Shown here piece by piece: positions 23,403 to 39,106 of a DNA stretch of 64,000 nt (its first letter is position 1; each line of letters begins with the position of its first letter). Location: assembly GCF_000015725.1 (NCBI RefSeq), contig NC_008825.1, positions 3,658,001 to 3,722,000 on the forward strand, read 5' to 3'. A program made the position numbers and the translations under genes. Source of the DNA: Methylibium petroleiphilum PM1 (GTDB taxonomy: Bacteria; Pseudomonadota; Gammaproteobacteria; Burkholderiales; Burkholderiaceae_C). The notes beneath the pieces are model-generated. The model did not search any database. It had not been told where the DNA came from and saw only the letters and a program-made list of their open reading frames with translations.

Positions 23403-24594
23403 GTTCGTGAAGAAGATCCTGGCGCCGCGGTGGCTGTTGGCCGGGATGGTAGGCGCACTGGCCGCCTGCAGCACGGCGCCGCCGGCCGGCCCCACGCCGC
23501 CATCGCCCACCTCGCCCGCTGCGCCGCCCACGGCCGCGCCGGCCCCGGCGGCCGCAGCCCTGCCGCCGCCGCTGCTGCGCGAGAACGCCCGCTGGCAGCC
23601 GGTGCCCTGGAGCGACCTGCCCGGCTGGGAGGTCGACGCCACGGGGCGTGTCTGGCCGGCGCTGCTGGCCGGCTGTTCGAAGCCGGCCCCCGGCTGGGCC
23701 GCCGCCTGCGCCAGCGCCAAGGCGCTCGATGCGCCCGACGACGCCCGCGTCCGCGCCTGGCTGCAGCGCACGCTGACGCCCTACCGCGTCACCGCGCTCG
23801 ACGGTCGCGGCGAGGGCCTCGCCACCGGCTACTTCGAGCCGCTGGTCGCCGCCTCGCGCCAGCGCAGCAAGAGCTACAGCGTGCCGCTCTACGCGGCGCC
23901 GCCGAACCTGGCACTGCGCAAGCCCTGGTACACGCGCGCCGAGATCGAGACGCTGCCGGCAGCGCGCGCCGCACTGAAGGGGCGCGAGATCGCCTGGATC
24001 GCCGACCCACTGGACGCGCTGCTGCTGCAGGTGCAGGGCTCGGGCCGGCTCGCAATCACCGAGCCCGACGGCCGCCGGCAGACCGTGCGCCTCGCCTACG
24101 GCGGCCACAACGACCAACCCTACCAGTCGGTCGGCCGCTGGCTGGTCGAGCGTGGTGCGTTCACGCTGGAGCAAGCCTCGTGGCCGGCCATCAAGGCCTG
24201 GGCGCGCGCCAACCCCGGTCGCGTGTCGGAGATGCTGGCCGCGAACCCGCGCTACGTGTTCTTCCGCGAGGAGCCGCTGCCCGATCCGTCGATCGGCGCG
24301 GTCGGCGCGCAGGGCGTGCCGCTGACGCCGGGCCGCTCGATCGCGGTCGATCCGCGCGCCATTCCCTACGGTACGCCCGTGTGGCTCGACACCACCGAGC
24401 CGCAGCCCTGGAGCGCCACGCCCCCCCCGCCGCGGCCACTGCAGCGACTGGTGATGGCGCAGGACACCGGCAGCGCCATCACCGGCGCCGTGCGCGCCGA
24501 CTACTACTGGGGCTGGGCCGAGGGCGCCGAGGACCGCGCCGGCCGCATGAAGCAACCGCTGCGGATGTGGGTGCTGTGGCCCGTCACGCGCTGA
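23401..24594 (+). CDS. mltA: membrane-bound lytic murein transglycosylase A
   Basis: Cleaves peptidoglycan to anhydromuropeptides at the outer membrane. 397 residues; AGGAG precedes the ATG at 23401. The lipobox LAAC (Cys22) follows a short signal, then a Pro/Ala linker. MltA-domain motifs: GYFEPLVAASRQRSKSYSVPLY, DALLLQVQGSGRL and the 3D domain with GRSIAVDPRAIPYGTPVWLDT and VMAQDTGSAITGAVRADYYWG, which includes the catalytic Asp residues. Its 3' end overlaps the end of the convergent LnmK-like gene by 11 bp. Confidence 0.95.
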   Translation: MFVKKILAPRWLLAGMVGALAACSTAPPAGPTPPSPTSPAAPPTAAPAPAAAALPPPLLRENARWQPVPWSDLPGWEVDATGRVWPALLAGCSKPAPGWAAACASAKALDAPDDARVRAWLQRTLTPYRVTALDGRGEGLATGYFEPLVAASRQRSKSYSVPLYAAPPNLALRKPWYTRAEIETLPAARAALKGREIAWIADPLDALLLQVQGSGRLAITEPDGRRQTVRLAYGGHNDQPYQSVGRWLVERGAFTLEQASWPAIKAWARANPGRVSEMLAANPRYVFFREEPLPDPSIGAVGAQGVPLTPGRSIAVDPRAIPYGTPVWLDTTEPQPWSATPPPPRPLQRLVMAQDTGSAITGAVRADYYWGWAEGAEDRAGRMKQPLRMWVLWPVTR

Positions 24595-25465
24595 GGCCAT
24601 CGCCGTCGACCGGCGCGCGCCGCTTGCGCGTCAGCACGTCGGCCAGGCGGGCGCCGTCGCCGGTGCGTCGCACCTCGCACCAGTGCGACAGCCCGTCGGG
24701 CGACTCCTGCACGCCGCGCAGCAGCACCGTCAGCGATTCGCCGACGTTCACGTTGCCGTAGAACGCCAGTTCGCGCTCCGCCAGCCGCGGCAGCGCCGTC
24801 GAGCCGAACCACGCCCCCTCGGCGCGGTCGACGATCGCCTGGAAGCTCGCGAAGTAAAGCAGGTCGGCGCCATTGAAGTCGTTGTGCGGGCAGGGCTGGA
24901 ACCGGAACTCGCGCAACGGCGCGCCGCGCTCCGATTCCGGCCCGAAGTCCGGCTGCCATTGCCCGCTGCGCAGGGCCCGTCCCCGCTCGGCCAGTTGCAG
25001 GGCGCAGGTGGTCAGCGCGGCCCGCTCGATATCGGCCTCGGGCGCGGCGGTGGTCGCCGGCACCGCGGCGCGGACCACGCTGCGGTTGTCGCCGGCGCGC
25101 TCGCGCCGCACGAAGGTGGACAGCATCTCGACCTGCGCATGCGTGCCGTCGCGCCCCCGCAGCTCGTGCAGGCCGAAGTGCTGCGAGCGCCCCACCGGCA
25201 GGCAGCGCGAGACGACGCGCAGGCGGTCGTTCTCCGCCACCCGGTCCAGCCGTGCGTGGCGGATGCGCACGGCGGTGAACGCCGCATAGGCCTTGCGGCC
25301 CCCGGCGTCGCGGAAATCGGGCCGGGCCCGGCCCTGCCGGCGGGCCAGCGCGAGCCAGTGCTGGTGGCCGCATTCCTTCAGCAGCCAGTTCTCCGACAGG
25401 CCCGTCGGGCACAGCTGGGGCATGCCGGCGACGAAGCGCCCGGACTGCAGCGCGGCTGCCGTCAC
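24584..25465 (-). CDS. LnmK-type/Pnap_2097-family biosynthetic protein
   Basis: 293 residues from GTG at 25465, which overlaps the nitH stop (GTGA). The sequence has the double hot-dog features of LnmK-like proteins: GMPQLCPTGLSENWLLKECG at the N terminus, a middle segment VEMLSTFVRRE and a second half with FNGADLLYFASFQAIVDRAE. LnmK in leinamycin synthesis is a bifunctional acyltransferase/decarboxylase; Pnap_2097 proteins are its homologues in Nit1C-like clusters. It is the last gene of the cluster, so I infer an acyl-transfer or thioesterase step in the cluster product. Function otherwise unknown. Confidence 0.7.
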   Translation of the reverse strand: MTAAALQSGRFVAGMPQLCPTGLSENWLLKECGHQHWLALARRQGRARPDFRDAGGRKAYAAFTAVRIRHARLDRVAENDRLRVVSRCLPVGRSQHFGLHELRGRDGTHAQVEMLSTFVRRERAGDNRSVVRAAVPATTAAPEADIERAALTTCALQLAERGRALRSGQWQPDFGPESERGAPLREFRFQPCPHNDFNGADLLYFASFQAIVDRAEGAWFGSTALPRLAERELAFYGNVNVGESLTVLLRGVQESPDGLSHWCEVRRTGDGARLADVLTRKRRAPVDGDGLSA

Positions 25466-26745
25466 GACAGCCAGGGCTCGGCCAGCTCGCGCGCAGCCGG
25501 CGTTCCGGCGACCGGCGCGCGCGCCTCGATCTGCTCGGCCAAGTAGAGCGCGTCGCGCGCCACCCCCGAGAAGCGGCCCGAGCCCCAGGTGTGCAGCCAG
25601 GGCAGGCCGATGAAGTAGAGCCCCGGCAGCGCGGTCACGCCGCGCACGTGGCCGGGCTGCCCGCGGCCGTTGAACACAGGCGCGTCGAGCCAGCTGAAAT
25701 CGGGCGAGAAGCCGATGCACCAGATCACCGCGCCGATGCCGGACTCGCGCAGCGACAGCCGCGTGCGCTCGGCCGCCGGCTCCCACACCGGCCGGTAGAC
25801 CGACGGCGGCGGCACGTCGAGGCCGGCCTTCTCGATGTGCTTGTCGATCGCGGCGTTGATGCCGTTGTAGATGCGGTCGGCGTGGTCGAGGTTGGCGCGG
25901 AGGTCGGGGTTGAAGTGCAGCGTGTCGCCCTCCAGGCCATTCAGCAGCCCATAGAGCTCCATGCCCTCGTTCGCGAACTTGCGCAGGTCGATGTCGCGCC
26001 CGCCGTCGCGGCCGGTGACGTAGTGGTTGGTGTTGTCGCGCACGCCCTCGCGCAGCGGGTGCTCGTGCACCGGCATGTCGTAGTAGCCCATGTCGGCCAG
26101 CCAGTCGACCACGTCCTTGCCGCGGTAGAAGCGCGCGCAGCGCGGCGCGTCGCCGGTCGCCATCACCACCTGGCGGCCGGCCAGGTGCAGGTCCTCGGCG
26201 ATCTGCGCGCCCGACTGGCCGTTGCCCACCACCAGCACCTTGCCGGGCGGCAGCGCCTGCGCATTGCGGTACTGCTCCGAGTGGATCTGCAGCAGATCGC
26301 GCGGCAGCCGCTCGGCCAGCCGCGGGATGATGGGCTGGTGGTATCCGCCCGATGCCACCACCAGCTGGTCGGCGCTGTAGTGGCCCTGCGAGGTGGCGAT
26401 CTCGAAGCCGCCGCCGGCGCGCGGCGCGGCGCGCTGCACCGTCAGGCCGCTGCGCACCGGCGCGGCCACGTGCTTCACGAAGCCATCGAGGTACTCGATG
26501 ATCTCGTCCTTCTTCATGAAGCCGTGCGGGTCGCTGCCGGCGTACTCCCAGCCCGGCAGCTTGCACTGCCAGTTGGGCGTGACGAGGCAGAAGCTGTCCC
26601 AGCGCTGCGTGCGCCAGGCGTGCAGCGGCGAGCGCTTCTCGAGCACGATGTGGTCGATGCCGCGCTGCTGCAGGTAGTAGCTCAGCGACAGGCCGGCCTG
26701 GCCGCCGCCGACGATGGCGACGCTGTGGTGTTCTGCGTTGGGGTT
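25462..26745 (-). CDS. nitH: Nit1C flavin-dependent oxidoreductase (MSMEG_0569 family)
   Basis: 427-residue class B flavoprotein monooxygenase-like enzyme. The FAD-binding GxGxxG motif is VAIVGGGQAGLSLSYYLQQRG at the N terminus; a second Rossmann motif VLVVGNGQSGAQIAEDL (about 183-199) binds NADPH. WRTQRWDSFCLVTPNWQCKLPG and the terminal WLHTWGSGRFSGVARDALYLAEQ are typical of this family. In cyanotrophic Pseudomonas the homologue is one of the Nit1C genes associated with cyanide assimilation, where an oxygenation step has been proposed. It overlaps the downstream LnmK-like gene. Confidence 0.88.
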   Translation of the reverse strand, partial: NPNAEHHSVAIVGGGQAGLSLSYYLQQRGIDHIVLEKRSPLHAWRTQRWDSFCLVTPNWQCKLPGWEYAGSDPHGFMKKDEIIEYLDGFVKHVAAPVRSGLTVQRAAPRAGGGFEIATSQGHYSADQLVVASGGYHQPIIPRLAERLPRDLLQIHSEQYRNAQALPPGKVLVVGNGQSGAQIAEDLHLAGRQVVMATGDAPRCARFYRGKDVVDWLADMGYYDMPVHEHPLREGVRDNTNHYVTGRDGGRDIDLRKFANEGMELYGLLNGLEGDTLHFNPDLRANLDHADRIYNGINAAIDKHIEKAGLDVPPPSVYRPVWEPAAERTRLSLRESGIGAVIWCIGFSPDFSWLDAPVFNGRGQPGHVRGVTALPGLYFIGLPWLHTWGSGRFSGVARDALYLAEQIEARAPVAGTPAARELAEPWLS

Positions 26746-26771
26746 CATGGCGAGGGTCCTTCTTGCTCGGG

Positions 26772-27056
26772 TCAGGCTTCGTCGAAGCGCAGCACTTCCA
26801 CCTCGGCCTGCGCGTCGAAGCGCCCGGCGGTGGCCTCGATCTGCGCCAGCTGGTCCATCGCCATCGAGCAGGCGTAGCCGAACTTGGCACGCACGCGCTC
26901 GGAGGCGATGTGCAGCGCCTCGCGGCTGCGGTCCAGGAACTCCGGCAGCGGGTAGCTGCTGCCGGGGACGAGGTAGTCCTTGATCACCAGCGACGGCGAG
27001 TAGCAGCGCGTCTCGCTGCGATCGGGCCAGCGCAGGTGGAAATGCATCGCGGGCAT
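26772..27056 (-). CDS. nitG: Nit1C small protein (MSMEG_0570 family nitrogen starvation response)
   Basis: 94 residues (MPAMHFHLRWPDRSETRCYS...). Characteristic segments are the early HLRWPDRSE, SLVIKDYLVPGSSYPLPEFL and the helical part ALHIASERVRAKFGYACSMA. No catalytic motif is evident; homologues occur only with other Nit1C genes, so a carrier or structural role is likely. ATG 27056 is preferred; a second in-frame ATG follows three codons later. It lies between the glycosyltransferase and nitH. Confidence 0.82.
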   Translation of the reverse strand: MPAMHFHLRWPDRSETRCYSPSLVIKDYLVPGSSYPLPEFLDRSREALHIASERVRAKFGYACSMAMDQLAQIEATAGRFDAQAEVEVLRFDEA

Positions 27057-27082
27057 GGGGCGAATCTCCAGGCAACGTGAGG

Positions 27083-28351
27083 TCAGGAAACGACAGGGGC
27101 GGCGTCCATCGCGGCCGGTTCGGTGGGCACCGCCGCGGCGAGCGGCACGCCATGACCGACCAGCGCCCGCATCGCGCGGTACAGCGCGACGTGGCGCGCG
27201 GCGCTGGCCGTCCAGCTGTAGCGCCGGCAGACCTCGGGCACGGCCCGGGCCAGCGCCTGCGCGCGCTCCGGTTCGCAGGCCCGCGCCATCGCGTCGGCGA
27301 TCGACAGCGGGTTCAGCGGGTCGGCCCAGCAGGCCTCGCCGTGCCGTTCGTCGGCCGGCAGGTACTCGGTGAACGGCGCCTGGCGCGACACCACGACCGG
27401 CGTGCCGCAGGCCAGTGCCTCCAGCACCACCAGGCCGAAGCCCTCGCGCAGCGAGGCCATCACCAGCACGTCGGCGGCACGGAACAGCGCCGGCATCTCG
27501 TCGTCGGCGACGGTGCCGGTGATCACCACGTCGGCCCCCGGCCCGACGCGCAGGCCGCTGGCGGCCAGCGCCTCGGTGAACTCGCGCGCATAGCGGTCGT
27601 GGTCGAGCAGGCTGGCACCGCCGGCGATCACCAGCTGCGCCTGCGGCTGCCGCGCCCGCAGGGCCGCAAAGGCCTGCAGCACACGCACCGTGTTCTTGCG
27701 CTCCTCGATGCCCCCCACCGCCAGGTAGACCGGCGCGTCGTGGGCCGCGCCGACGCGCAGGCCGAAGCGGCGCCGCACGCGCGCATCGGCCGCGCCGGCT
27801 TGGCGGCCGTAGCGCTGCAGGTCGACGCCGTTGTGAACCAGCGCCGCGGCCACGCCGTGCTCGCGCCGCAGCGTGTCGCACCAGGTCTGGCTGACGCACA
27901 GCACCTGGCGCGCGCGCAGGAAGGCGCGTTCCTGCCAGGCCATCACGCGCGCGTCGTCGAAGCGGTCGAGGTGGTGCACGGTGCGCACGAAGCCGTCGAT
28001 CAGGCCGCGCTCCTGCAGCGTCGCAAGCGCGTTGCCGCCGATGCCATCCTGGGCGTGCAGCACGTCCCAGCCAACCCCGCGCTCCAGCCGCGGCGCGAGA
28101 TGGTCGATGCAGGCGTCGCGGCGCGACGCGACCATGCTCGCCAGATCGGCGGGCGCCGGCGCCACCGGCACCAGCTCGACCGCGCAACGCGGCGTGCGGA
28201 ACAGCGCCTGCCCGGGCAGCGCCGGCGCCATCACCGTCACCTCGTGGCCGGCCTCGTGCAATGCATCGGCCAGTTCCAGCGTGTGGATGACGCCACCGCG
28301 CGGATGGACCGAATGGGTCAGCAGGCCGATGCGCAGGCGACGGCTAGACAT
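27083..28351 (-). CDS. family-4-like glycosyltransferase (MSMEG_0565 family)
   Basis: 422 residues, GT-B fold. The N-terminal half has IGLLTHSVHPRGGVIHTLEL, and the C-terminal nucleotide-sugar domain has YLAVGGIEERKNTVRVLQAF, VITGTVADDEMPALFRAADV and the E-x7-E motif in REGFGLVVLEALACGTPVV. In the canonical nitBCDEFGH order this gene is an insertion between nitF and nitG; the same family accompanies the mycobacterial cluster. Its start overlaps the nitF stop by 8 bp, so it belongs to the operon. It implies that the cluster makes or modifies a glycosylated product. Confidence 0.85.
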   Translation of the reverse strand: MSSRRLRIGLLTHSVHPRGGVIHTLELADALHEAGHEVTVMAPALPGQALFRTPRCAVELVPVAPAPADLASMVASRRDACIDHLAPRLERGVGWDVLHAQDGIGGNALATLQERGLIDGFVRTVHHLDRFDDARVMAWQERAFLRARQVLCVSQTWCDTLRREHGVAAALVHNGVDLQRYGRQAGAADARVRRRFGLRVGAAHDAPVYLAVGGIEERKNTVRVLQAFAALRARQPQAQLVIAGGASLLDHDRYAREFTEALAASGLRVGPGADVVITGTVADDEMPALFRAADVLVMASLREGFGLVVLEALACGTPVVVSRQAPFTEYLPADERHGEACWADPLNPLSIADAMARACEPERAQALARAVPEVCRRYSWTASAARHVALYRAMRALVGHGVPLAAAVPTEPAAMDAAPVVS

Positions 28352-29372
28352 GGGCCGGCTCCCGCGGCACGACGGCTCGCGCGCCGATGAAGGGTTGCGC
28401 CACCAGGTCCCACAGCAGCGCGCTCGTCTCGCCGTCGCGCAGATGCAGCTGCGGGGTCGCCGTGACCTCGCCGACCGCGGCACAGGCGATGCCCTGCGAC
28501 TCGAAATGCCGCGCCACCGCGGCTGCCTGCGCCGGCCGCACGCTGAACACGTAGCCGTAGCTCGGAAAGGACTGCAGCCAGCGCAGCAGCGGCACGCCGG
28601 GCGGGCGCGGGATCGCCTGCACGTCGATCACGCCGCCGACCTGCGAGCACTCCAGCAGCATCAGCGCCGTGCCCACGGCGCCGGCCATGCTGATGTCCTT
28701 GGCCGCATCGCACAGGCCGCTCTCGGCCAGCGCCGGCAGCAGCTCGAGGTCGGCGCGCAGGCGCTCGGCCGGCGCGCGGGTCGACGCGTCCCAGTAGGGG
28801 TTGGGCTCCTGGTAGGCGCCGCGCAGGTCGATCGCCATCACCAGCGTGTCGCCGGGGCGGGCGTTGAAGCTCGTCAGCAGCGTCTTCGCTCGGCCGAGGA
28901 TCGCCACCGCGAGCTGGCCGCCGACCGCCTGGTTGTTGCTGTGGCCGCCGACGATCGGCACGCCGTAGCGCTGCGAGGCGGCCGCCAGGCCCTCGAGCAC
29001 CTGCTGGCCCGGCGCCATGCCGCGGCTCCACAGCGCGTCGACCACGGCGATCGGCCGCCCGCCCATCGCGCAGATGTCGCTCACGTTGACCATCACGCCG
29101 CAATAGCCGGCGAACCAGGGCATGCGCTGCACGAAGTCGTCGACGAAACCCTCGATCGCGAACAGCAGGTAGCCGCCGTCGCCGTCGGGGATCGCCGCAC
29201 AGTCGTCGCCGACGCCCACCGCCTGGCCCAGCGCGGCGGTGCCGCCCGGCAGCGCGGCCGACAGCGCCGACACCACGTCGCTGATGTCGCGCTTGTGTGC
29301 GAAGCCGCGCCCGCGCAGCAACGCCGAGGCGAGCCCGTCGAGCCCCCCCTGTCCCAGCATTGCATCCTCCAT
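28344..29372 (-). CDS. nitF: Nit1C AIR-synthase-like ATP-binding protein (sll0787 family)
   Basis: 342 residues related to PurM/SelD/ThiL. The glycine-rich N-terminal segment AVGVGDDCAAIPDGDGGYLLFAIEG, the VNVSDICAMGGRPIAVVDAL motif and AKDISMAGAVGTALMLLE match the two halves of the AIR synthase fold that bind ATP and metal. The family probably phosphorylates a carbonyl or carboxyl oxygen of an unknown substrate. It lies 10 bp after nitE; in mycobacteria the two are fused, which supports a joint role. Confidence 0.85.
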   Translation of the reverse strand: MEDAMLGQGGLDGLASALLRGRGFAHKRDISDVVSALSAALPGGTAALGQAVGVGDDCAAIPDGDGGYLLFAIEGFVDDFVQRMPWFAGYCGVMVNVSDICAMGGRPIAVVDALWSRGMAPGQQVLEGLAAASQRYGVPIVGGHSNNQAVGGQLAVAILGRAKTLLTSFNARPGDTLVMAIDLRGAYQEPNPYWDASTRAPAERLRADLELLPALAESGLCDAAKDISMAGAVGTALMLLECSQVGGVIDVQAIPRPPGVPLLRWLQSFPSYGYVFSVRPAQAAAVARHFESQGIACAAVGEVTATPQLHLRDGETSALLWDLVAQPFIGARAVVPREPAHV

Positions 29373-29382
29373 GCGGCCCCCG

Positions 29383-29970
29383 TCAGGCGCGGGCCCGGCT
29401 CTGCGCCACGTAGCCGGTCAGCGGATCGTGGCAGGGCGGGTAGTGCGCCAGATCGGCCTGCATCAGGCCGTGCGGTCGGCCGTGCAGCGTCTCGTCCTTC
29501 AGCCACTGCCAGTGCAGCCGCTCGAACAGCGGGCGGTTCTGTGCCTGCACGTGCGCCAGGAAGAGGCGCGCGCCGCGCGCGCGTGCGCTGCTCACCGCCA
29601 GCCGGATCAGCGTCGCACCGAGCCGGCCGTGGCTGCGGAAGGCCGGGTGCACCGCGAGGCGCGAGCCCCACCACACGCCCTCGTCGCCCTCGTTCTGGCC
29701 AGGATGGATGCGCACCGTGCCGACCACCTGGTCGCTCATGCCGCCCACGCAGGACAGCGCCACCAGCGGCTGCGCATGTGCATCGATCGCGTCGATGTCG
29801 TCGCCGCCGCCGAACAGGCCCTGCTCGATGCAGAACACCAGGCGGCGCAGGCGCCGCGCCTCGTTGATCTCCCAGGCACCATCGGCCCACTTGACGCGGA
29901 ACTCGCAGGGGGTGAAGGCGGTGGGCAGGTCGCACATCGGCTCGGGGGCCGTGGGAGCGGTGCGCATCAT
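29383..29970 (-). CDS. nitE: Nit1C GNAT N-acetyltransferase (MSMEG_0567/Sll0786 family)
   Basis: 195 residues. The acetyl-CoA-binding region of the GNAT fold is visible as WWGSRLAVHPAFRSHGRLGATLIRLAVSSARARG (the R/Q-x-x-G-x-G/A motif is RSHGRLGA). The N terminus contains FRVKWADGAWEINEARRLRRLVFCIEQGLF, typical for this family. ATG at 29970 overlaps the nitD stop (ATGA); a second in-frame ATG is the next codon. Substrate unknown. Confidence 0.85.
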   Translation of the reverse strand: MMRTAPTAPEPMCDLPTAFTPCEFRVKWADGAWEINEARRLRRLVFCIEQGLFGGGDDIDAIDAHAQPLVALSCVGGMSDQVVGTVRIHPGQNEGDEGVWWGSRLAVHPAFRSHGRLGATLIRLAVSSARARGARLFLAHVQAQNRPLFERLHWQWLKDETLHGRPHGLMQADLAHYPPCHDPLTGYVAQSRARA

Positions 29971-31103
29971 GATTCGTAGACCGACAACGAGGAGCACGCC
30001 CCGCACTTGCCGCAACCCGCCTTGATGTCGGCCGAGCGCAGCCCGCCGGCGCTCACCATCGCACCCAGCGGCTCCAGCACAGCCTTCATGAACTCGGGGC
30101 TCGGCGACGGATGGTCCTCGAGCGGCGTGCCGCTGATCGGCACGAAGGGCACGACGAAGGGGTAGACACCCAGCGCCACCAGCTTCTCGGCGATCGAGAG
30201 GATGGCCTCGCGCGTGTCGCCCAGGCCGGCGAGGATGTAGGTCGACACCTGACCGCGGCCGAACACGCCGACCGCCGCCTCGAAGCTCTCCAGGTAGCGC
30301 TCGACCGGCACGGTGGCCTTGCCCGGCATGACGCGTTCGCGCAGTTCGGGCGTCACCACCTCGAGGTGCATGCCCAGTGTGTCGATGCCGGCGGCCTTCA
30401 TGCGCACGAACCACTGGTCGGTATCCGGCGGTTCGCACTGCGCCTGGATCGGGAGGTCGACCGCCGCACGGATGGCGAATGCGCTGTCGCACAGCACCTG
30501 CGCGCCGCGGTCGGGCGTGGGCGGCGTGCCGGTGGTCATGACCATGTGCTTCACGCCGTCGAGCAGCACCGCGGCGCGCGCCACCTCGGCGAGCTGCTCC
30601 GGCGTCTTGTGCGCCACCGTGCGGCCGGCCGCGAGGCTCTGGCCGATCGCGCAGAACTTGCAGGTCTTGCGGCGGCTCTCGTAGCGGATGCAGGTCTGCA
30701 GCACCGTGGTCGCCAGCACGTCCGAGCCGTGCAGCGTGGCGATGTGCGAGTACGGCACGCCGTCGAAGGTCTGCAGCGCATAGAAGCGCGGCGCCTTCGG
30801 GAAGGCGACGCGCGCGATCGGGATGCTGCCGCGCGTCAGACGGCTCGTGCCGTCGGCGTCGGGCGCCTCGGCGACGAAGGGCGAGGCCCAGGCGCCGTGG
30901 GTGTGCACCGGCACCATGATCGTGTGGCCGTCGACCGTCACCGCCTTGTGGTCCGACGGCCCCGCGCCGCCGCGCCGGCTGGCGACGCCGGCGTTCGGCG
31001 AACCCGGGTCAGCCAGCCGCAACCCGAAGGACTGCAGCTCGGTCATCAGCCGGCGGCTCTCCGGCGACAGGGGCGTGGCGGGGCTGAGGGGCGGCGTGCT
31101 CAT
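29967..31103 (-). CDS. nitD: Nit1C radical SAM protein (MSMEG_0568 family)
   Basis: 378 residues from ATG at 31103 (GGAG nine bases upstream). The cluster motif is unusual: [14 protein letters not shown] gives Cys-x9-Cys-x2-Cys instead of the usual CxxxCxx[14 protein letters not shown] and [19 protein letters not shown] match the radical SAM barrel of the biotin-synthase-like type. A C-terminal Cys group ([10 protein letters not shown]) could bind a second metal cluster. It begins 95 bp inside the nitC frame. Confidence 0.88.
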
Positions 31104-32085
31104 GGGAGGAACTCCGGAAGGTCGCGGGAACGGCAGGGGCAAGGGCGGCCGCGGTCATCGACGTCGAGGTCGTGGCCGGGCGGTCGTCGATCAGGAGGCT
31201 CAGCAGCTCGGGGCGCGCGTAGTGGCCCACCGAGTCCATCATGCGTTTGCGCTTGGCGATCAGCGCCATGTCGAGGTCGGCATAGACGATGCCCTCGCCC
31301 TCGGTCAGCGGCGTGCACAGGTCCTTGCCCTCGGGCGAGACGATGGCGGTGTGGCAGCCGCCGCGCAGCGCCTTCTGCAGGCCGGCGTCGGGCGTGATCG
31401 CGGCGATCTGCGCGTCGGTCAGCCAGCCGGTGGCGTTGACGACGAAGCAGCCCGACTCCAGCGCGTGGTGGCGAATCGTCACCGCCATCTGGTCGGCGAA
31501 GATCTGCCCGACCATCGAGCCGGGAAACTGCGCGCAGTGGATCTCCTCGTGCTGCGTCATCAGCGCGTAGCGCGCCAGCGGGTTGTAGTGCTCCCAGCAG
31601 GCCAGCGCGCCGACGCGGCCGACCGCGCTGTCCACCACCTTCAGCCCGGCGCCGTCGCCCTGGCCCCAGACCATGCGCTCGTGATAGGTCGGGGTGATCT
31701 TGCGGCGCTTCAGGATCAGCGCACCGTCGGCGTCGAACACCAGCTGGGTGTTGTAGAGGCTGCCGTGGTCTCGCTCGTTGACGCCGAGCACGACGACGAT
31801 GCCGCGCGCGCGGGCCCGCTCGCCGACCGCCTGCGTGACCGGCCCGGGCACCACCACCGCGTGCTCCATCAGCCGCAGGTGCGGCGCGCCCTGCAGCACC
31901 GGCGGCAGCACGAACGAGAAGTAGGGGTAGTAGGGCACGAAGGTTTCGGGGAACACCACGATCCCCGCGCCGCGCCCGGCCGCCTCGTCGATCGCCGCGA
32001 GCACGCGCTCGAGCGTGCCCTCGGGCCGCTCGAGATCGGGCGCGATCTGGACCGCGGCAGCGCGGACGGTGCGAGGGGGACTCAT
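31009..32085 (-). CDS. nitC: Nit1C nitrilase (Nit6803/sll0784 family)
   Basis: 358 residues. Hydrolyses a nitrile to carboxylate and ammonia. The triad is complete: Glu47 in [14 protein letters not shown], Lys129 in [19 protein letters not shown] and Cys163 in [17 protein letters not shown]. Synechocystis homologues are broad-range nitrilases, so the natural substrate is open. The ATG at 32085 has GGAGA seven bases upstream. The last 50 residues are low-complexity (Thr/Ala/Pro/His-rich) and part of them overlap the nitD start, so the true stop of the ancestral gene may have been earlier. Confidence 0.92.
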
Positions 32086-32156
32086 CTCAGGATCTCCATG
32101 ACGGTTCGACGAGAAGCCGGGCGCAGGCCGAGGCACGGCCCACCGAGTGGACGCCG

Positions 32157-32216
32157 CGGGTCCGGCTCCGCCGGCCCGCCAGCGTCGCCCCCTTCGAGGG
32201 GGAGCGGCGCAGCCGC
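32157..32216. repeat. triple-hairpin element between nitB and nitC
   Basis: Three adjacent inverted repeats: CCGGC/GCCGG (inside 32157-32178), CCCCC-ttcga-GGGGG (32188-32202) and GCGGC-gca-GCCGC (32204-32216). They lie inside the operon, 10 bp after the nitB stop (reading on the minus strand), and may protect the 3' end of the nitB message or partly end transcription so that nitB is made in excess. A similar element is at 51682-51737, which suggests a repeat family. Confidence 0.5.
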
Positions 32217-32226
32217 AACGGGGTGT

Positions 32227-32709
32227 TCAAAGTGTCCAGGTGTCGAGGATGAAGGCGTCGGCCTTGCGGTGCAGCAGGATGATGTCCAGCACGTCCAGCG
32301 GACTGATCGGGCGGATGCCCTCGATCAGCGCGCCCTCGCCGTGGCCGTAGAGCGCCTGCAGCGCGAAGCGGCAGGCGTAGACCTTCCCGCCCTCGGCGAT
32401 GAACTTGGCGATCTGGTTGTTGAAGTTCTGGTGACCGGGGAAGGCCTCGTCGCCGAGCGTCGGGAAGCCGCGCTTGACACCCAGCGTCACGCCGGGGCCG
32501 TAGAGCAGCACCGAGGTCTCGAAGCCCTTGCGCTGCAGCCGCGTGGCCTGCAGCAGGTTGACGAAGCCGATCGAGCCTTCGAAGGCGACGGTGTGGAAGG
32601 TGACCAGGGCCTTCTCGCCCGGGGCGGCCTTCACGTCCTCGAAGACCTTCTCTTCGTAGTCGACGAGGAACTCGCCTTTCTCGTTGGCGGGGCGGGTGAC
32701 TTTGGGCAT
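32227..32709 (-). CDS. nitB: Nit1C nitrogen starvation response protein (MSMEG_0572/Sll0783 family)
   Basis: 160 residues, DsrE/DsrF-like small protein. Characteristic are [47 protein letters not shown] and [20 protein letters not shown]. The family is induced on nitrogen starvation in cyanobacteria and is the first Nit1C gene. Its Cys (KVYACRF) is in the position used by DsrE-type sulfur or ligand carriers, but no reaction is known. GGAG precedes the ATG, and a sigma54-type promoter lies 75 bp upstream. Confidence 0.88.
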
Positions 32710-32784
32710 GGCGGACTCCGTTGGCGGTTGGCGGTTGACAGGGGTCGAAGGAGGAAAGAAAGGCGCTGAGCGCAGCCGGCTCTT

Positions 32785-32800
32785 TGCACGCGGTGTGCCA
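32785..32800 (-). promoter_or_regulatory. sigma54 (-24/-12) promoter of the Nit1C operon
   Basis: The minus strand reads TGGCACACCGCGTGCA. Against the consensus TGGCACrNNNNTTGCW it has all six of TGGCAC, the purine and four of the five in TTGCW, with GG and GC at the correct spacing. The start would be near 32774, leaving a 65-base leader before nitB. An 8-bp inverted repeat CACGGCGG/CCGCCGTG sits directly upstream. Confidence 0.72.
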
Positions 32801-32825
32801 CGGCGGCCCCGCCGTGCAGCCCGGC

Positions 32826-33057
32826 GATGCGATCAATGGGCGATCAAGAAGCCGCGGCGCGGTCGCCGTCGACCGCTTCTTTTTTCGAAGGCTCGCCGGG
32901 GCGTGGAAAGACCCCTTTTCCACAGGGGAATGCACGCACCGGCGTGAGGCGCCGCGATGCGATCAATGCCTCCGATCAACGGCCCACGGCGCACCGCACC
33001 TGGGCACCGTCGCTCGCCGCGGGCCACCCGGTGATGGCATGAACGATGCAATCAATG
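32826..33057. repeat. three GATGCRATCAATG direct repeats in the nitB-mocR region
   Basis: GATGCGATCAATG occurs at 32826-32838 and 32956-32968, and GATGCAATCAATG at 33045-33057, all on the plus strand. After the first two, a further CGATCAA follows 11 and 13 bp later (32841-32847, 32973-32979). They are the obvious candidate binding sites for the MocR-type regulator encoded next to them; such regulators bind direct repeats. The third copy spans the regulator's first possible start codon. The 336-bp region holds no gene. Confidence 0.7.
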
Positions 33058-34491
33058 CGCCATCCCGACCCCCTGCCCTCGCCCTTCATCCCCATGGCCG
33101 CCGCCAAACCCATGCAGCACTGGCTGCGCCGACTCGAGGGCAGCGACCGGCCCGCCTACCTGCTGATCGCCGACCTGATCGCCGAGGACCTGCGCACCGG
33201 CCGGCTCGGCGCGCAGGAGCGCCTGCCCACGCTGCGCCAGTTGGCCGACAGCCTGCGGCTCAACTACACCACGGTGGCGCGCGCCTATGGCGAGGCGCGC
33301 AAGCGCGGGCTGATCGACTCGCGTCCCGGCATGGGCACCTACGTGCGCGGGCGCAGCCCGGCCGTGCCGCTGCGCGGCGGCAGCGGCGCGGAGATGACGA
33401 TGAACCTGCCGCCGGAGCCCGAGGACCCGGCGCTGGTCGAGCGCCTGCGCGACAGCGCCCGCGAGCTGATGGCCCGCAGCGACCTGTACACGCTGATGCG
33501 CTATCAGGATTTCGGCGGCTCGCCCGAGGACAAGGACGCCGCGGTGCAGTGGCTGCGCCACCGTTTGCCGGACTGCAGCGCCGAGCGCGTGCTGGTCTGC
33601 CCCGGCATCCACAGCGCGCTGGCCGCACTGGTGTCGCAGCTGGCGCGGCCGGGCGAGCTGGTGTGCGTGGAGTCGCTCACCTACCCGGGCATCAAGGCGA
33701 TCGCCACCCAGCTCGGCGTGCAGCTGCACGCGCTGGCGCTCGACGACGAAGGCCCGAGTGCGGCCGACTTCGAACAGGCCTGCAAGACCCTCAAGCCCAA
33801 GGCGCTGTACTGCAACCCGACGCTGCTGAACCCGACCACGCTCACCACCTCGAAGCGGCGGCGCGAGGCGCTGGCCGACATCGCGCTGCGCTACAGCGTG
33901 CCGATCGTCGAGGACGACGCCTACTCGATGCTGCCGCGCGAGGTGCCGCCGCCGCTGGCGCTGCTGGCGCCGGAGCTCACCTACTACGTCACCGGTTTCA
34001 GCAAGTGTCTCGGCGCGGGCCTGCGCACCGCCTACGTCAGTGCGCCCAGCGAACGCCAGGCCCAGCGGCTGGCCGGCGCGCTGCGCGCCACCACGGTGAT
34101 GGCGTCGCCGGTGACCAATGCGCTGGCCACCCGCTGGGTCGTCGACGGCAGCGCGCAGGCGATGCTGCAGGCGATCCGCAACGAGTCGATCGCCAGGCAG
34201 GCGATGGCGGCCCGCCACCTGGCGCGCCACGCGGTGCAGGCGCAGCCGGAGGGCTTCCACCTCTGGCTGCCGCTGTCCTCTTCGTGGAGCACGGTGGAGT
34301 TCGCGTCCTACCTGCGCACCCAGGGCGTCGGCGTGGTGGCCAGCGCCGCCTTCTCGACCGACGGCGATCCGCCGGACGCGGTGCGCATCTGCCTCGGCGG
34401 CCCGCTGACGCGCGAGGACTGCGACGCCGCGCTGCGGCTGATCGCCGACACGCTGGACCACCCGCTGCATCCGCACGCCACCGTGATGTAG
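33046..34491 (+). CDS. MocR/GabR-type regulator (GntR winged helix fused to PLP aminotransferase fold)
   Basis: 481 residues from ATG 33046; ATGs at 33055 and 33094 are alternatives, and the last may be the true start because the first two lie in an operator-like repeat. The N-terminal winged helix (about 35-105) contains LPTLRQLADSLRLNYTTVARAYGEARKRGLIDSRPGMGTYV. The aminotransferase-like domain has the PLP Lys (K320) in TGFSKCLGAGLRTAYV, and VEDDAYSMLP supplies the cofactor-stacking Asp. It probably senses an amino compound and regulates the divergent Nit1C operon. Confidence 0.9.
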   Translation: MQSMRHPDPLPSPFIPMAAAKPMQHWLRRLEGSDRPAYLLIADLIAEDLRTGRLGAQERLPTLRQLADSLRLNYTTVARAYGEARKRGLIDSRPGMGTYVRGRSPAVPLRGGSGAEMTMNLPPEPEDPALVERLRDSARELMARSDLYTLMRYQDFGGSPEDKDAAVQWLRHRLPDCSAERVLVCPGIHSALAALVSQLARPGELVCVESLTYPGIKAIATQLGVQLHALALDDEGPSAADFEQACKTLKPKALYCNPTLLNPTTLTTSKRRREALADIALRYSVPIVEDDAYSMLPREVPPPLALLAPELTYYVTGFSKCLGAGLRTAYVSAPSERQAQRLAGALRATTVMASPVTNALATRWVVDGSAQAMLQAIRNESIARQAMAARHLARHAVQAQPEGFHLWLPLSSSWSTVEFASYLRTQGVGVVASAAFSTDGDPPDAVRICLGGPLTREDCDAALRLIADTLDHPLHPHATVM

Positions 34492-35487: not shown

Positions 35488-35931
35488 ATGACCCCGACCC
35501 CGAATCCACATGCCCGCATCGCACGGCGGGCGCTGTTGCAGGCGGCGGCCTGCGCCGCGCTGACCCTGCCGGCCGCCGCCCGCGCGCAGGCGCTGCCTGC
35601 CGCACCGAAGGTCGACCTGGAAACGGCGCGCACCGCCGCGGCCGCCGGCCAGGCCCTGCTGATCGACATCCGCGAACCGGACGAGCACGCCGCGACCGGC
35701 GTCGCGCCGGGCGCACTGCGCCTGCCACTGAGCCAGATCAAGGAGCGGCAGTCCGAGATCCCGCGCGATCCGGCCCGGCCGGTGCTGCTGATCTGCCGCA
35801 CGCAGAACCGCTCCAGCAAGCTGGCCGCGATGCTGCAGGCGCAGGGCTACACCAACGTGAGCTATGTGGACGGCGGCATGAAGGAGTGGACCGGGCGCCA
35901 CTTCCCGACCGAGGCGCCGCCACCACGCTGA
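35488..35931 (+). CDS. exported rhodanese-like protein
   Basis: 147 residues from ATG 35488, which has AGGAGG five bases upstream (an in-frame upstream start has no such support). The N terminus ARIARRALLQAAACAALTLPAAARAQA is a Tat- or Sec-type signal with a twin Arg. The rhodanese domain has LLIDIREPDEHAATGVAPGALRLPLSQI and the active-site Cys loop LLICRTQNRSSK, followed by GGMKEW. Rhodanese transfers sulfane sulfur, in vitro to cyanide, which may not be chance beside a Nit1C cluster. Periplasmic location inferred. Confidence 0.88.
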   Translation: MTPTPNPHARIARRALLQAAACAALTLPAAARAQALPAAPKVDLETARTAAAAGQALLIDIREPDEHAATGVAPGALRLPLSQIKERQSEIPRDPARPVLLICRTQNRSSKLAAMLQAQGYTNVSYVDGGMKEWTGRHFPTEAPPPR

Positions 35932-36452: not shown

Positions 36453-36896
36453 TCAGTATGTTTTGTAGGGAAGGAACTTCCCGCTCATCGTGATGCTGAC
36501 CCGGTCGCCGGCAGGGTGGGGCTCGCGCTGCAGGTCCATCTTGAAATCGATCGCGCTCATGATGCCGTCGCCGAACTCCTCGTGGATCAGTTCCTTGAAG
36601 GTCGTGCCGTACACGCTGACCAGTTCGTAGAAGCGGTAGATCAGCGGGTCGGTGGGCACGGTGGTGGGCAGCGAGCCCTTGTAGGGCACCACCATCAGCC
36701 ACTTCTGTTCGGCATCGCTGAGGCTGAAGATCTCGCCGACGATGCCGGCCTGCTCCTTCGTCAGCGTCATCTGGCCGAGGCAGGCCGCCGTCGTCCATTC
36801 CTTGCTGAGGCCGACCTTGGCGGCGATATCGGACCACTTCAGGCCCTTGGCCACCTTGGTGGCGACGATCTTTTCGGTGACTTCGAGACGGCTCAT
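36453..36896 (-). CDS. cynS: cyanate hydratase (cyanase)
   Basis: Converts cyanate and bicarbonate to ammonia and CO2. 147 residues, close to the 156 of E. coli. The N-terminal POU-like helical domain (1-75) is followed by the catalytic domain: Arg88 and Glu91 in [21 protein letters not shown] and Ser114 in [10 protein letters not shown] correspond to Arg96, Glu99 and Ser122 of the E. coli enzyme. It is downstream of an ABC transporter of the nitrate/cyanate type. This gives ammonia from cyanate, alongside the Nit1C operon 4 kb away on the same strand. Confidence 0.96.
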
Positions 36897-36967
36897 GGCG
36901 TGCTCCGGTGGGGTGGGACAAAGGGAGGGGTGATCGAGGGCGTGCGTGGACGAGCGGATGACATCGC

Positions 36968-37894
36968 TCACACCACTCGCTGCAGCGGCACCCGGTTCGG
37001 CGAGGCCACGCCGGTGACCAGCGCGGCGGGTTCGGTGTCGGCCTCCGGCCAGGCATCGACGCCCGGATGCACTTCGGGTGGAAACGCCGGCGCGCGACCG
37101 TGCGCCAGGTCCTTCGAGCGCGCGACGAGGAAGTCGACCAGGTGGTTGCGGATGCGGTAGTACTGCGGGTCGTGGTGCAGCGTGGCGCGCTGGCGGTCGC
37201 GCGGCATGGTGTTGCGCACGATCTCGGCCACCCGCGCCTGCGGGCCGTTGCTCATCAGCAGGATCTTGTCGGCCAGCAGGATGGCCTCGTCGACGTCGTG
37301 CGTGATCATGAAGACGGTCTGGTGCGTCTCGGCGCAGATCTTCAGCAGTTCGTCCTGGATGCTGCCGCGCGTCAGCGCGTCGAGCGCACCGAAGGGTTCG
37401 TCGAGCAGCAGCATCTTGGGTTCGATCGCGAAGGCGCGCGCGATGCCCACGCGCTGCTTCATGCCGCCCGACAGGGCCGACGGTTTCTTGTCGATGGCAT
37501 GCCCCAGGCCGACCATCGTCACGTACTTCTCGACCTGCGCCTCGACCTGCGACGCGGCCCAGTCGGGCCACTTGCTGCGCACCGCGAAGGCGATGTTGCG
37601 GCGCACGCTGAGCCAGGGCATCAGCGCATGGCCCTGGAAGACCACGCCACGCTCGAGGCTCGGGCCGGCGACCTCGCGGCCGTCCATGAACACGTGGCCG
37701 GCGCTCGCCTGCTCCAGGCCCGCGAGCACGTTGAGGATGGTGGTCTTGCCGCAACCGCTGTGGCCGACGATGCAGACGAACTCGCCCTTCGCAACGCCGA
37801 AGTTGACGCCGTCGAACACCGGCTCGGAGGAGCCGGGGTAGGTCTTGGCCAGGCCCTCGATCTTGAGGAAGGGGGTGGGTGAGTTCATGGGCAT
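36968..37894 (-). CDS. nitrate/cyanate-type ABC transporter ATP-binding protein
   Basis: 308 residues. Walker A GHSGCGKTT, ABC signature LSGGMKQRVGIARA, Walker B MLLLDEPFGALD and the H-loop ITHD are all present, so it is an active NrtD/SsuB-like ATPase. A 60-residue C-terminal tail (after LLMSNGPQARVAEIVRN) is longer than in sulfonate ATPases and typical of the nitrate/cyanate group. Start ATG 37894 or, two codons later, 37888; neither has a clear ribosome binding site. A 309-bp gap with strong inverted repeats separates it from the permease gene. Confidence 0.92.
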   Translation of the reverse strand: MPMNSPTPFLKIEGLAKTYPGSSEPVFDGVNFGVAKGEFVCIVGHSGCGKTTILNVLAGLEQASAGHVFMDGREVAGPSLERGVVFQGHALMPWLSVRRNIAFAVRSKWPDWAASQVEAQVEKYVTMVGLGHAIDKKPSALSGGMKQRVGIARAFAIEPKMLLLDEPFGALDALTRGSIQDELLKICAETHQTVFMITHDVDEAILLADKILLMSNGPQARVAEIVRNTMPRDRQRATLHHDPQYYRIRNHLVDFLVARSKDLAHGRAPAFPPEVHPGVDAWPEADTEPAALVTGVASPNRVPLQRVV

Positions 37895-37933
37895 GGGCCG
37901 GTCTTGCGCATCTGGCTTGCTTGCACCGAGCAC

Positions 37934-38009
37934 GCAAGGGTGAGGCTGAGGCCGCGGTCGCTTCGCTGGGGTACCAGAGGCGCGCCCGCGGCCTCAGCCT
38001 CACCCTTGC
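37934..38009. repeat. 24-bp perfect inverted repeat in the transporter operon
   Basis: The arms at 37934-37957 and 37986-38009 (beginning GCAAGGGTGAGG) are exact reverse complements, with a 28-base loop. Transcribed, it would form a very stable hairpin between the permease and ATPase genes. Confidence 0.75.
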
Positions 38010-38055
38010 CAGACGCACCGTGCGTTGCAGTGGTCGAATCCCTCCGCTGCATCCC

Positions 38056-38169
38056 GGCCCGAGGGCGGTGGGCTGTGCGGGCGCCCTCGCGGAGCGAGCA
38101 GCGCAGCGGACCTTCGCCGGCAGGCGAAGGCGGCACAGTGAAGCTCGCGCAGGCCACCGCCCTCGGGCC
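38056..38169. repeat. second, nested inverted repeat in the transporter operon
   Basis: GGCCCGAGGGCGGTGG (38056-38071) is the exact reverse complement of 38154-38169. Nested inside are CTGTGC/GCACAG (38073-38078, 38133-38138) and CCTTCGCC-ggca-GGCGAAGG (38111-38130). The whole 37895-38203 gap has no credible gene. Confidence 0.7.
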
Positions 38170-38203
38170 GCACGCCGAAGCGGCCCGCGAACAACGAAGG
38201 AGG

Positions 38204-39091
38204 TCAATCCACATACGTCACCGCCTTCTGCGCCCGCGCGAACAGCAGGTCCAGCAGCATGCCGACCACACCGATCACCAGGATCGCGAAGATCACGTTG
38301 GTGAGCGACAGGTTGTTCCACTCGTTCCACACGAAGTAGCCGATGCCGGTGCCGCCGACCAGCATCTCGGCGGCCACGATCACCAGCCAGGCGATGCCCA
38401 TGCTGATGCGCATGCCCGTCAGGATGGTGGGCGCCGCCGCCGGGAGGATCACCTCGAAGGCCTTGCGCAGCGGGCTCACCTCCAGCGTCCTGGCCACGTT
38501 GAGCCATTCGCGCCGCACGCCGGCCACGCCGAAGGCGGTGTTGATCAACATCGGCCAGACCGAGCAGATGAAGATCACGAAGATGCCGCTGATCGACGAG
38601 TCCTTGATCGTGTAGAGCGCCAGCGGCATCCAGGCCAGCGGCGAGATCGGCTTGAGCACCTGGATGAACGGATCGAGCGCACGGTAGACCAGCGGGCTCA
38701 TGCCGATCAGGAAGCCCAGCGGGATCGCGACCAGGGCCGCCAGCGCGAAGCCCAGCCCCACCCGCCCCAGCGAATAGGCAAGCTGCAGGCCGATCCCCTT
38801 GTCGTTCGGGCCGTTGTCGTAGAACGGGCGCGACAGGTGCTCGACCATCTTGCTGCCCAGCTGGGCCGGTGTCGGGAAGCCGGAGCGGCCGGCGGTCGAG
38901 CCGGCCTCGGCACCCGGCTCCTTGCCGAGCAGGCGGGCGTACTCGATCTGTTCCGGCGTCATCGTCGCGGCCGGCGCCGCCGCGCTGCCCGCCGCCGGCC
39001 GCGTGGCGAGCTGCCACACGCCCAGCAGCAGCGCGAGGATCAGCGCAGACAGCAGGCCGGCGCGCAGGTCGAGCGAACGGGTTCCGTCCAT
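38204..39091 (-). CDS. nitrate/cyanate-type ABC transporter permease
   Basis: 295 residues. One N-terminal membrane helix (about 12-29), a periplasmic segment, then five or six further helices. The permease EAA-type loop is VARTLEVSPLRKAFEVILPAAAPTILTGMR, and SLGRVGLGFALAALVAIPLGFLIG opens the BPD domain. It pairs with the ATPase and the binding protein on either side, probably importing cyanate or nitrate; cynS in the operon favours cyanate. Confidence 0.92.
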   Translation of the reverse strand: MDGTRSLDLRAGLLSALILALLLGVWQLATRPAAGSAAAPAATMTPEQIEYARLLGKEPGAEAGSTAGRSGFPTPAQLGSKMVEHLSRPFYDNGPNDKGIGLQLAYSLGRVGLGFALAALVAIPLGFLIGMSPLVYRALDPFIQVLKPISPLAWMPLALYTIKDSSISGIFVIFICSVWPMLINTAFGVAGVRREWLNVARTLEVSPLRKAFEVILPAAAPTILTGMRISMGIAWLVIVAAEMLVGGTGIGYFVWNEWNNLSLTNVIFAILVIGVVGMLLDLLFARAQKAVTYVD

Positions 39092-39106
39092 GGCCGTCCG
39101 ATCCGC

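Follow-up and report, generated by a model that had tools for sequence, protein, structure and literature searches.

The Nit1C cluster of Methylibium petroleiphilum PM1

We analysed 64,000 nt of the Methylibium petroleiphilum PM1 genome (NC_008825.1, positions 3,658,001-3,722,000, forward; the whole stretch is hereafter the window), in which nine complete open-reading frames (ORFs) without internal stops occupy positions 24584-32709 of the minus strand and form a genuine Nit1C cluster. Two of the nine are a glycosyltransferase gene (hereafter GT) and an LnmK-like gene (hereafter K), and it is K, recurrent in Nit1C clusters and often followed by a methylmalonyl-CoA mutase gene, that is the main subject here. 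An earlier note, made from the sequence alone, had claimed a complete Nit1C set in the order nitBCDEFGH, and both statements are borne out: NitB to NitH are all present, each over its curated NCBIfam cut-off, in conserved order on a single strand (Table 1). The model search that it proposed (TIGR04042-04049, TIGR04098 and TIGR04099) placed each protein over the cut-off of its model.

The gene overlaps that the note gave are exact, with nitC and nitD sharing 95 nt, nitF and GT 8 nt, nitD and nitE 4 nt (ATGA) and nitH and K 4 nt (GTGA), and the other intervals are +10 nt (nitE-nitF), +26 nt (GT-nitG) and +23 nt (nitG-nitH). Its description of the genes as tightly packed fits this operon-like arrangement except at nitB-nitC, the only loose junction (+141 nt). 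The nine genes would be transcribed as an operon. The account of nine genes thus stands, but it overlooked a divergent MocR-type regulator gene with two direct-repeat boxes, just outside the span that it covered.

Table 1 Features of the Nit1C cluster and its upstream region in the window (bit scores are given with the cut-off of the model).
Feature	Position	Strand	Description	Model or expectation
nitB	32227..32709	-	MSMEG_0572/Sll0783 family, weakly DsrE-like	TIGR04044 281.6/109.85
nitC	31009..32085	-	Nit6803-type nitrilase, ATG at 32085	TIGR04048 582.4/502.6
nitD	29967..31103	-	radical SAM protein	TIGR04043 590.1/303.7
nitE	29383..29970	-	GNAT N-acyltransferase	TIGR04045 217.4/68.45
nitF	28344..29372	-	AIR-synthase/PurM-superfamily enzyme	TIGR04049 493.8/321.3
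GT	27083..28351	-	GT4 glycosyltransferase, MSMEG_0565 family	TIGR04047 553.6/259.85
nitG	26772..27056	-	MSMEG_0570 family, 94 aa	TIGR04042 130.9/79.85
nitH	25462..26748	-	flavin-dependent oxidoreductase, MSMEG_0569 family	TIGR04046 670.1/498.35
K	24584..25465	-	LnmK-like acyltransferase/decarboxylase, Pnap_2097 family; GTG start	TIGR04099 335.7/125; TIGR04098 303.2/100
Regulator gene	33046..34491	+	MocR-type (GntR/aminotransferase-like) regulator	EhuR 400/480
MocR-proximal box	32955..32979	-	candidate operator, direct repeat TTGATCG-N6-TTGATCGCATCG	0 expected, window shuffles
nitB-proximal box	32825..32847	-	candidate operator, direct repeat TTGATCG-N4-TTGATCGCATCG	0 expected, window shuffles
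Sigma-54 -24/-12 element	32785..32800	-	weak candidate TGGCACACCGCGTGCA, upstream of nitB	two mismatches to consensus

K recurs beside nit genes

The predicted model of K (pLDDT 92.2) has the double hot-dog fold of LnmK, and in a search of 350,542 PDB chains the top seven matches were all LnmK entries (best 6x7m, TM 0.75). K shares this fold and the TIGR04098 model with LnmK of leinamycin biosynthesis (PDB 4hzn, 6x7l-p), yet the two are only ~20% identical, no polyketide synthase lies beside K in the window, and the Pfam LnmK_N_HDF score is under its cut-off (21.6 vs. 26.5 bits). Tyr60 of K aligns with LnmK Tyr62, which we take to be the catalytic residue of LnmK, and is invariant in 70 aligned rows and at least 98% conserved in 81 homologues. 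LnmK itself reportedly specifies (2R)-methylmalonyl-CoA, as the title of a cited study has it.

In a sample of 329 genomes of the family, which also supplied 37 other nitB loci for comparison, 38 had nitB over cut-off and eight had K; the eight all belong to the 38, with K on the same contig as nitB, ~8 kb off (hypergeometric 1.6e-8, relatedness ignored). In a sparse class-wide sample of 274 genomes, K was over cut-off in one, that of the window, with one further match below, and a Nit6803 nitrilase in two. A two-peptide-pattern scan of 84,980 named species genomes gave 132 K relatives, the best 80 of which are referred to as the named K loci; alignments of these covered 69 (A2) or 58 (A3), near-copies and short matches being excluded.

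A nit gene lies beside K in 79 of the 80 named loci. K follows nitH in 71, nitG in two and nitE in one, and is divergent from nitB in five, all from Pseudomonas. The set from nitB to nitH is complete in 73; it is interrupted by contig ends in L119, L130 and L158, lacks a detected nitG in L116, and is reduced to nitB, nitE and nitH in L140 and to nitH in L143. The hosts that combine K with Nit1C span Burkholderiales, Pseudomonas, Oceanospirillaceae, Methylophilaceae, Methyloversatilis, Azospirillum and Azorhizobium, in several arrangements. In Ralstonia (L111:9357-12904) a second nitE, K and a mutase gene form a run of their own between the MocR-type gene and nitB; Caballeronia L140 (7393-12927) holds a reduced nitB-nitE-nitH-K-mutase run, and neither nitG nor a gene for a nitrilase, a radical SAM protein or a PurM-like enzyme was found at the locus; and Paraburkholderia L143 has nitH-K-mutase. 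The LnmK-like gene that the earlier note saw as added at the end of the cluster is therefore present, but is a recurrent partner with an NCBIfam model of its own, and by its neighbourhoods K is a Nit1C gene.

The nearest sister genome lacks K, although its NitD is 96% identical to that of the window and its nitH (97%) and the convergent lytic transglycosylase gene (named by eye, 90%) are close copies too. The blocks of these two genes are separated by 72 nt in the sister and by 929 nt holding K in the window, and in L087, of the same genus, ~860 nt of other sequence without K stand at that place; two further genomes of the genus had neither nitB nor K. Judging from this alignment, K would have been either gained here or lost by the sister genome.

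Methylmalonyl-CoA mutase beside K or elsewhere in the genome

Downstream of K a 685-700 aa protein is commonly encoded, and the four examples tested all score over the equivalog cut-off for methylmalonyl-CoA mutase. Methylmalonyl-CoA mutase makes (2R)-methylmalonyl-CoA from succinyl-CoA, in a reversible reaction. It lies within 1.2 kb after K in 58 of the 80 named loci, directly after it in 57 (55 plus L135 and L180, resolved later) and 1.2 kb off in L124, and the gap between the two matches as measured is below 125 nt in 56 of the 58. L159 retains a 5' remnant of the mutase gene after K. A cluster mutase is absent from all 37 family Nit1C loci, of which seven have K and 30 do not. The neighbourhood of K holds nothing comparable: other families of ORFs of at least 60 aa occur in at most 15 of the 80 loci, none at a fixed place, and the four found in at least eight have scattered offsets and are found on either strand, although small genes and those without a GC3 signal may be missed by this survey.

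Mutases were also searched for in whole genomes, namely those of 79 of the 80 K loci (L158 not included), the window's own and the 31 family genomes with Nit1C. Full canonical mutases scored 869-913 bits and those beside K ~557-743, and we labelled a mutase canonical at 850 bits or more. By this label, a canonical mutase is present in none of the 57 genomes searched whose K locus has a cluster mutase (the 58 loci less L158), vs. 19 of the 23 whose K locus has none. The latter include the window's genome, which encodes a canonical mutase outside the cluster (C1:1077825-1079390, 886 bits). Of the four others, L121 has a contig that ends 65 bp after K and a 724-bit mutase on another contig, L119 a fragment resembling the canonical enzyme at the edge of a contig, L159 the remnant, and L115 a fused IcmF alone. 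Both groups comprise unlike hosts: cluster mutases occur in Burkholderiaceae, Methylophilaceae, Oceanospirillaceae, Pseudomonadaceae and Derxia, and K without one in Comamonadaceae, Azohydromonas, Methyloversatilis, Azospirillum and Azorhizobium. Because of this adjacency and the complementarity between genomes, the probable substrate of K is methylmalonyl-CoA, as it is for LnmK.

Several observations weigh against this assignment or against the pathway that we build on it below. The Fisher value for the complementarity of canonical and cluster mutases (8e-15) overstates independence, since the mutase label falls in clumps on the K tree (82 of 84 sequences, without L112 and L180; four duplicate loci excluded) and needs only five changes there, so that independent events are few; about three of the changes are at single rows: the contig end of L121, the absence in L115 and the remnant in L159. 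L115 (Cupriavidus campinensis) carries K with only a fused, IcmF-type mutase, and some cluster mutases are incomplete, that of L117 being split and those of L120 and L184 cut by contig ends. An intact canonical mutase is present in 24 of the 31 family Nit1C genomes, 30 of which lack K, and one further genome has a copy split between contigs; because it is so common a host trait, a canonical mutase in K genomes alone proves little. Second mutase frames of 683-687 bits lie outside the cluster in the window's genome (C2:490959-492524, 686 bits) and two other family genomes, and therefore score alone does not define a cluster-type mutase; the L151 and L186 genomes hold second mutases of 638 and 481 bits. 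One of the 80 named loci, L108, has K without any nit gene in its 14 kb. No carrier protein was seen to recur near K, where small genes may be missed, and the likeness of NitE to FeeM is only marginal (PF21926, 27.3 bits, cut-off 27). Upstream of nitB, NtrC sites are not enriched (four of 76 gaps vs. 2.2), and the effector of the regulator cannot be read from EhuR because the protein scores under the EhuR cut-off.

Separately, the window's genome has a second nitrilase gene (C1:1054159-1055073; 257.9 bits, under the Nit6803 cut-off) ~23 kb from its canonical mutase gene.

A divergent MocR-type regulator with two candidate operators

The regulator gene divergent from nitB gave full-length matches to MocR-like models, none over cut-off, that to EhuR covering residues 26-476. 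Its K320, by analogy the lysine that would bind pyridoxal phosphate (PLP), is at least 98% conserved in 98 homologues. All 37 other family loci have a MocR-type gene that diverges from nitB. In 56 of the 75 named K loci that include nitB such a gene lies on the opposite strand, and in eight on the same one; a NitA-type activator takes its place in eight, and neither is intact in three (L114, where the MocR gene is split, L121, at a contig end, and L140).

The pattern of the two direct-repeat boxes has exactly two sites in the 4.64-Mb genome, both in the gap between nitB and the regulator gene, vs. none for the reversed control. Motifs were counted in 76 non-redundant gaps upstream of nitB, 16 of 92 having been excluded as near-copies: TTGATCG is present in 72 (8.8 in shuffles) and TTGATCGCAT in 59 (0.6 in shuffles), and 291 of 337 TTGAT(C/T/A)G sites share one orientation, often as two pairs with spacings of 13 and 11 nt. 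The MocR-type protein would bind these boxes. Sigma-54-like elements with up to two mismatches are also frequent (47 of the 76 gaps vs. 5.2 in shuffles) and in many relatives lie ~50-120 nt before the nitB end of the gap. The gap in the window contains another site as good as the one in Table 1, no site in the window has one mismatch or fewer, and a sigma-70 promoter scan of 32200-33100 returned nothing.

The regulator resembles EnuR and EhuR, as far as they are described in the part of PMC8739950 drawn on here, in its MocR family and PLP lysine, and differs in scoring under the EhuR cut-off and in its candidate operators, which are direct repeats of TTGATCG whereas the EnuR consensus is the inverted repeat ATTGT-N6-ACAAT. 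Since MocR proteins such as EnuR sense amines through PLP (the same part of PMC8739950), a primary amine is at most a fair guess for the effector. In the literature searches made, we found no description of a Nit1C MocR-type regulator with candidate operators; the word nitrilase is absent from the main text of a MocR regulon survey (PMC5320631), the supplement of which might hold a prior report.

A proposed pathway and its alternatives

We lean, with some confidence, towards reading the locus as a Nit1C cluster of the GT-bearing betaproteobacterial type joined by a gene for a methylmalonyl-CoA-consuming acyl donor, that is, a pathway for making or modifying a compound, with a propionyl-donating module as an option. 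A mutase, encoded outside the cluster here and directly after K in most relatives, would convert succinyl-CoA to (2R)-methylmalonyl-CoA, which K would decarboxylate, handing the propionyl group to a carrier or acceptor in the manner of LnmK; we infer both this substrate and this direction of reaction. NitE, the GNAT enzyme, would acylate an amine of a pathway intermediate, GT would add a sugar, and the radical SAM, PurM-like, flavin and nitrilase steps would build or process the nitrogen group, whilst the MocR-type regulator, expected to sense a primary amine through PLP, would control the operon from the two boxes. NitE is the favoured candidate for receiving or using the propionyl group because of the nitE-K-mutase run of L111, the nitB-nitE-nitH-K-mutase cluster of L140 and the FeeM match. 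An independent pairing of the two domain types is seen in MadA of E. coli, a fusion of a GNAT and a hot-dog decarboxylase in which, according to the part of PMC8666670 drawn on, the role of the GNAT domain is unassigned. The earlier note, too, had judged the genes to make up a pathway beyond nitrile hydrolysis, which we infer to be right, and had named no product, as we do not.

A more specific form of this proposal, which we hold only tentatively, is that Nit1C makes a nitrogen-stress metabolite and that mutase, K and NitE act as a plug-in propionylation module, (2R)-methylmalonyl-CoA coming from an in-cluster or a housekeeping mutase and the MocR-type protein sensing a primary-amine intermediate or product. 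The explanations weighed here overlap, and their probabilities need not add up to one.

The best-surviving alternative is plain nitrile or cyanide assimilation, in which NitC would free ammonia under nitrogen limitation, the other proteins would support it and K and GT would be minor passengers. It draws on the use of NitC and nit1C for cyanide assimilation in P. pseudoalcaligenes (in the parts of PMC8567248 and PMC11049912 that deal with it), on cyanase and nitrate/cyanate-type ABC genes ~4 kb from the cluster, on cynS near Nit1C in eight of 117 fetched loci (duplicates included), and on the otherwise syntenic sister without K. We nevertheless consider it improbable: K is kept with Nit1C across diverse hosts and several arrangements, the reduced nitB-nitE-nitH-K-mutase cluster has no nitrilase, and hydrolysis alone would leave the radical SAM, PurM-like and GT genes unexplained. 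Less probable again is that K is a hot-dog thioesterase or other acyl-CoA enzyme linked to the mutase by shared regulation only. FatA-type acyl-ACP thioesterases are indeed the next structural matches below LnmK, to which K has so low an identity, but the seven LnmK entries rank first, Tyr60 is conserved, K and mutase matches lie so close in nearly all loci with both, and genomes are split by which mutase they hold. A catabolic role, in which a nitrile or its acid would yield a methylmalonyl or propionyl unit that the mutase drains to succinyl-CoA, is the least likely of the three, since, for all the reversibility of the mutase and its place beside K in 58 of the 80 named loci, K groups with a decarboxylase/acyltransferase that would destroy the catabolic substrate of the mutase, and propionyl-CoA carboxylase and epimerase are not among the four recurring neighbour families (named by eye).

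Relation to known Nit1C clusters

The Nit1C cluster in its GT-bearing form is already known, as is the K-mutase gene arrangement, which was listed in 2016 (PMC4751646, in part). Nit1C has been reported from cyanobacteria, mycobacteria and proteobacteria (parts of PMC1199592 and PMC6039565), and Burkholderia and Rubrivivax clusters with GT between nitF and nitG were reported in 2005 in passages of Podar et al. (PMC1199592), which hold no LnmK-like gene, MocR regulator or conservation outside Nit1C. GT is thus present where the earlier note placed it, but is not peculiar to this locus, and its novelty is ruled out by the 2005 report. Of 65 GT-bearing loci, 63 have it between nitF and nitG; in the other two (L085 and L090), where nitG was undetected, it lies between nitF and nitH. 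Besides the window's, 34 of the 37 family nitB loci have it, L086 and L104 lacking it and L073 ending with its contig. The gene comes and goes, because its label changes 13 times on the NitD tree.

The nitBCDEFGH genes of P. pseudoalcaligenes CECT5344 are the same seven in the same order in the parts of PMC8567248 and PMC11049912 that describe them; their regulator is the sigma-54-dependent NitA, in contrast to the MocR-type protein here, and the words glycosyl and LnmK are absent from the main text of PMC11049912. The nine-ORF, Cupriavidus-like nitrilase operon of the Atlantis II brine (PMC4751646, in the passages on its genes) comprises Nit1C genes, a conserved hypothetical protein and methylmalonyl-CoA mutase, which is the K-mutase arrangement; those passages list no GT, leave the hypothetical protein unnamed and draw no link to methylmalonyl-CoA chemistry. 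Among the literature matches listed, no title or abstract offers a reading of K or of the mutase within Nit1C, the genes being listed in PMC4751646. In M. smegmatis, as covered in part of PMC6039565, the gpr cluster MSMEG_0565-0572, after whose genes several NCBIfam models including that of GT are named, is strongly nitrogen-controlled, being induced by nitrogen starvation through GlnR, a regulator different from that of the window, and its reported phenotype combines resistance to peroxide with a raised NADPH/NADP ratio.

New by comparison are the membership of K in Nit1C, its link to the mutase, the regulator with its candidate operators, and the sister genome without K. A methylmalonyl-CoA-fed step would be a concrete substrate lead for the Nit1C product, and the question can be tested directly with the help of the sister pair differing at K, the complementarity of the mutases and the candidate operator with its two sites.

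Individual Nit proteins and neighbouring genes

Conserved residues mark several of the Nit proteins. E47, K129 and C163 of NitC, a Glu-Lys-Cys triad at the positions given for a relative in part of PMC4751646, reach at least 98% conservation among 106 homologues, and the nearest solved sequence is 3wuy (E 9.6e-152). NitD conserves Cys138, 148 and 151 and a C-terminal CX2CX2C (364, 367, 370) to the same degree (107 homologues), and no solved relative was found at E ≤ 0.01. NitB, which scores 18.1 bits against PF02635 (cut-off 22.7), likewise conserves C113 (at least 98%, 108 homologues), and the nearest solved relatives of NitF include ThiL, PurL, SelD, PurM-type and HypE entries (E 1e-6 to 6e-3). 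In NitG Cys63 is invariant in 59 aligned rows. Its candidacy as a carrier protein, suggested by a GxxCS motif, is unsupported: the confident model (pLDDT 94.8) is a mixed alpha/beta fold, and with a best PDB match at E 0.2 it is possibly a new one.

The nitB-nitC gap (32086-32226) contains a C5-TCGAA-G5 inverted repeat at 32182-32202, single in the window, which is possibly an mRNA processing site, an attenuation site or a repeat element. One family genome carries two equal-score nitB copies ~4 kb apart (L106, G440:C40:42961-47590).

The cyanase gene (PRK02866 228 bits, cut-off 150) and the nitrate/cyanate-type ABC transporter genes lie at 36453-40501 on the minus strand, ~4 kb from nitB, and cynS with an ABC ATPase gene is also near nitB in L083 and L087 of the same genus; the count of eight in 117 loci rules out cyanase as a regular Nit1C partner. 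Between the MocR/YihY and cyanase genes, a small rhodanese-like protein is encoded at 35488-35931 on the plus strand, its best models being under their cut-offs, and the same gene is found in the sister locus L083.

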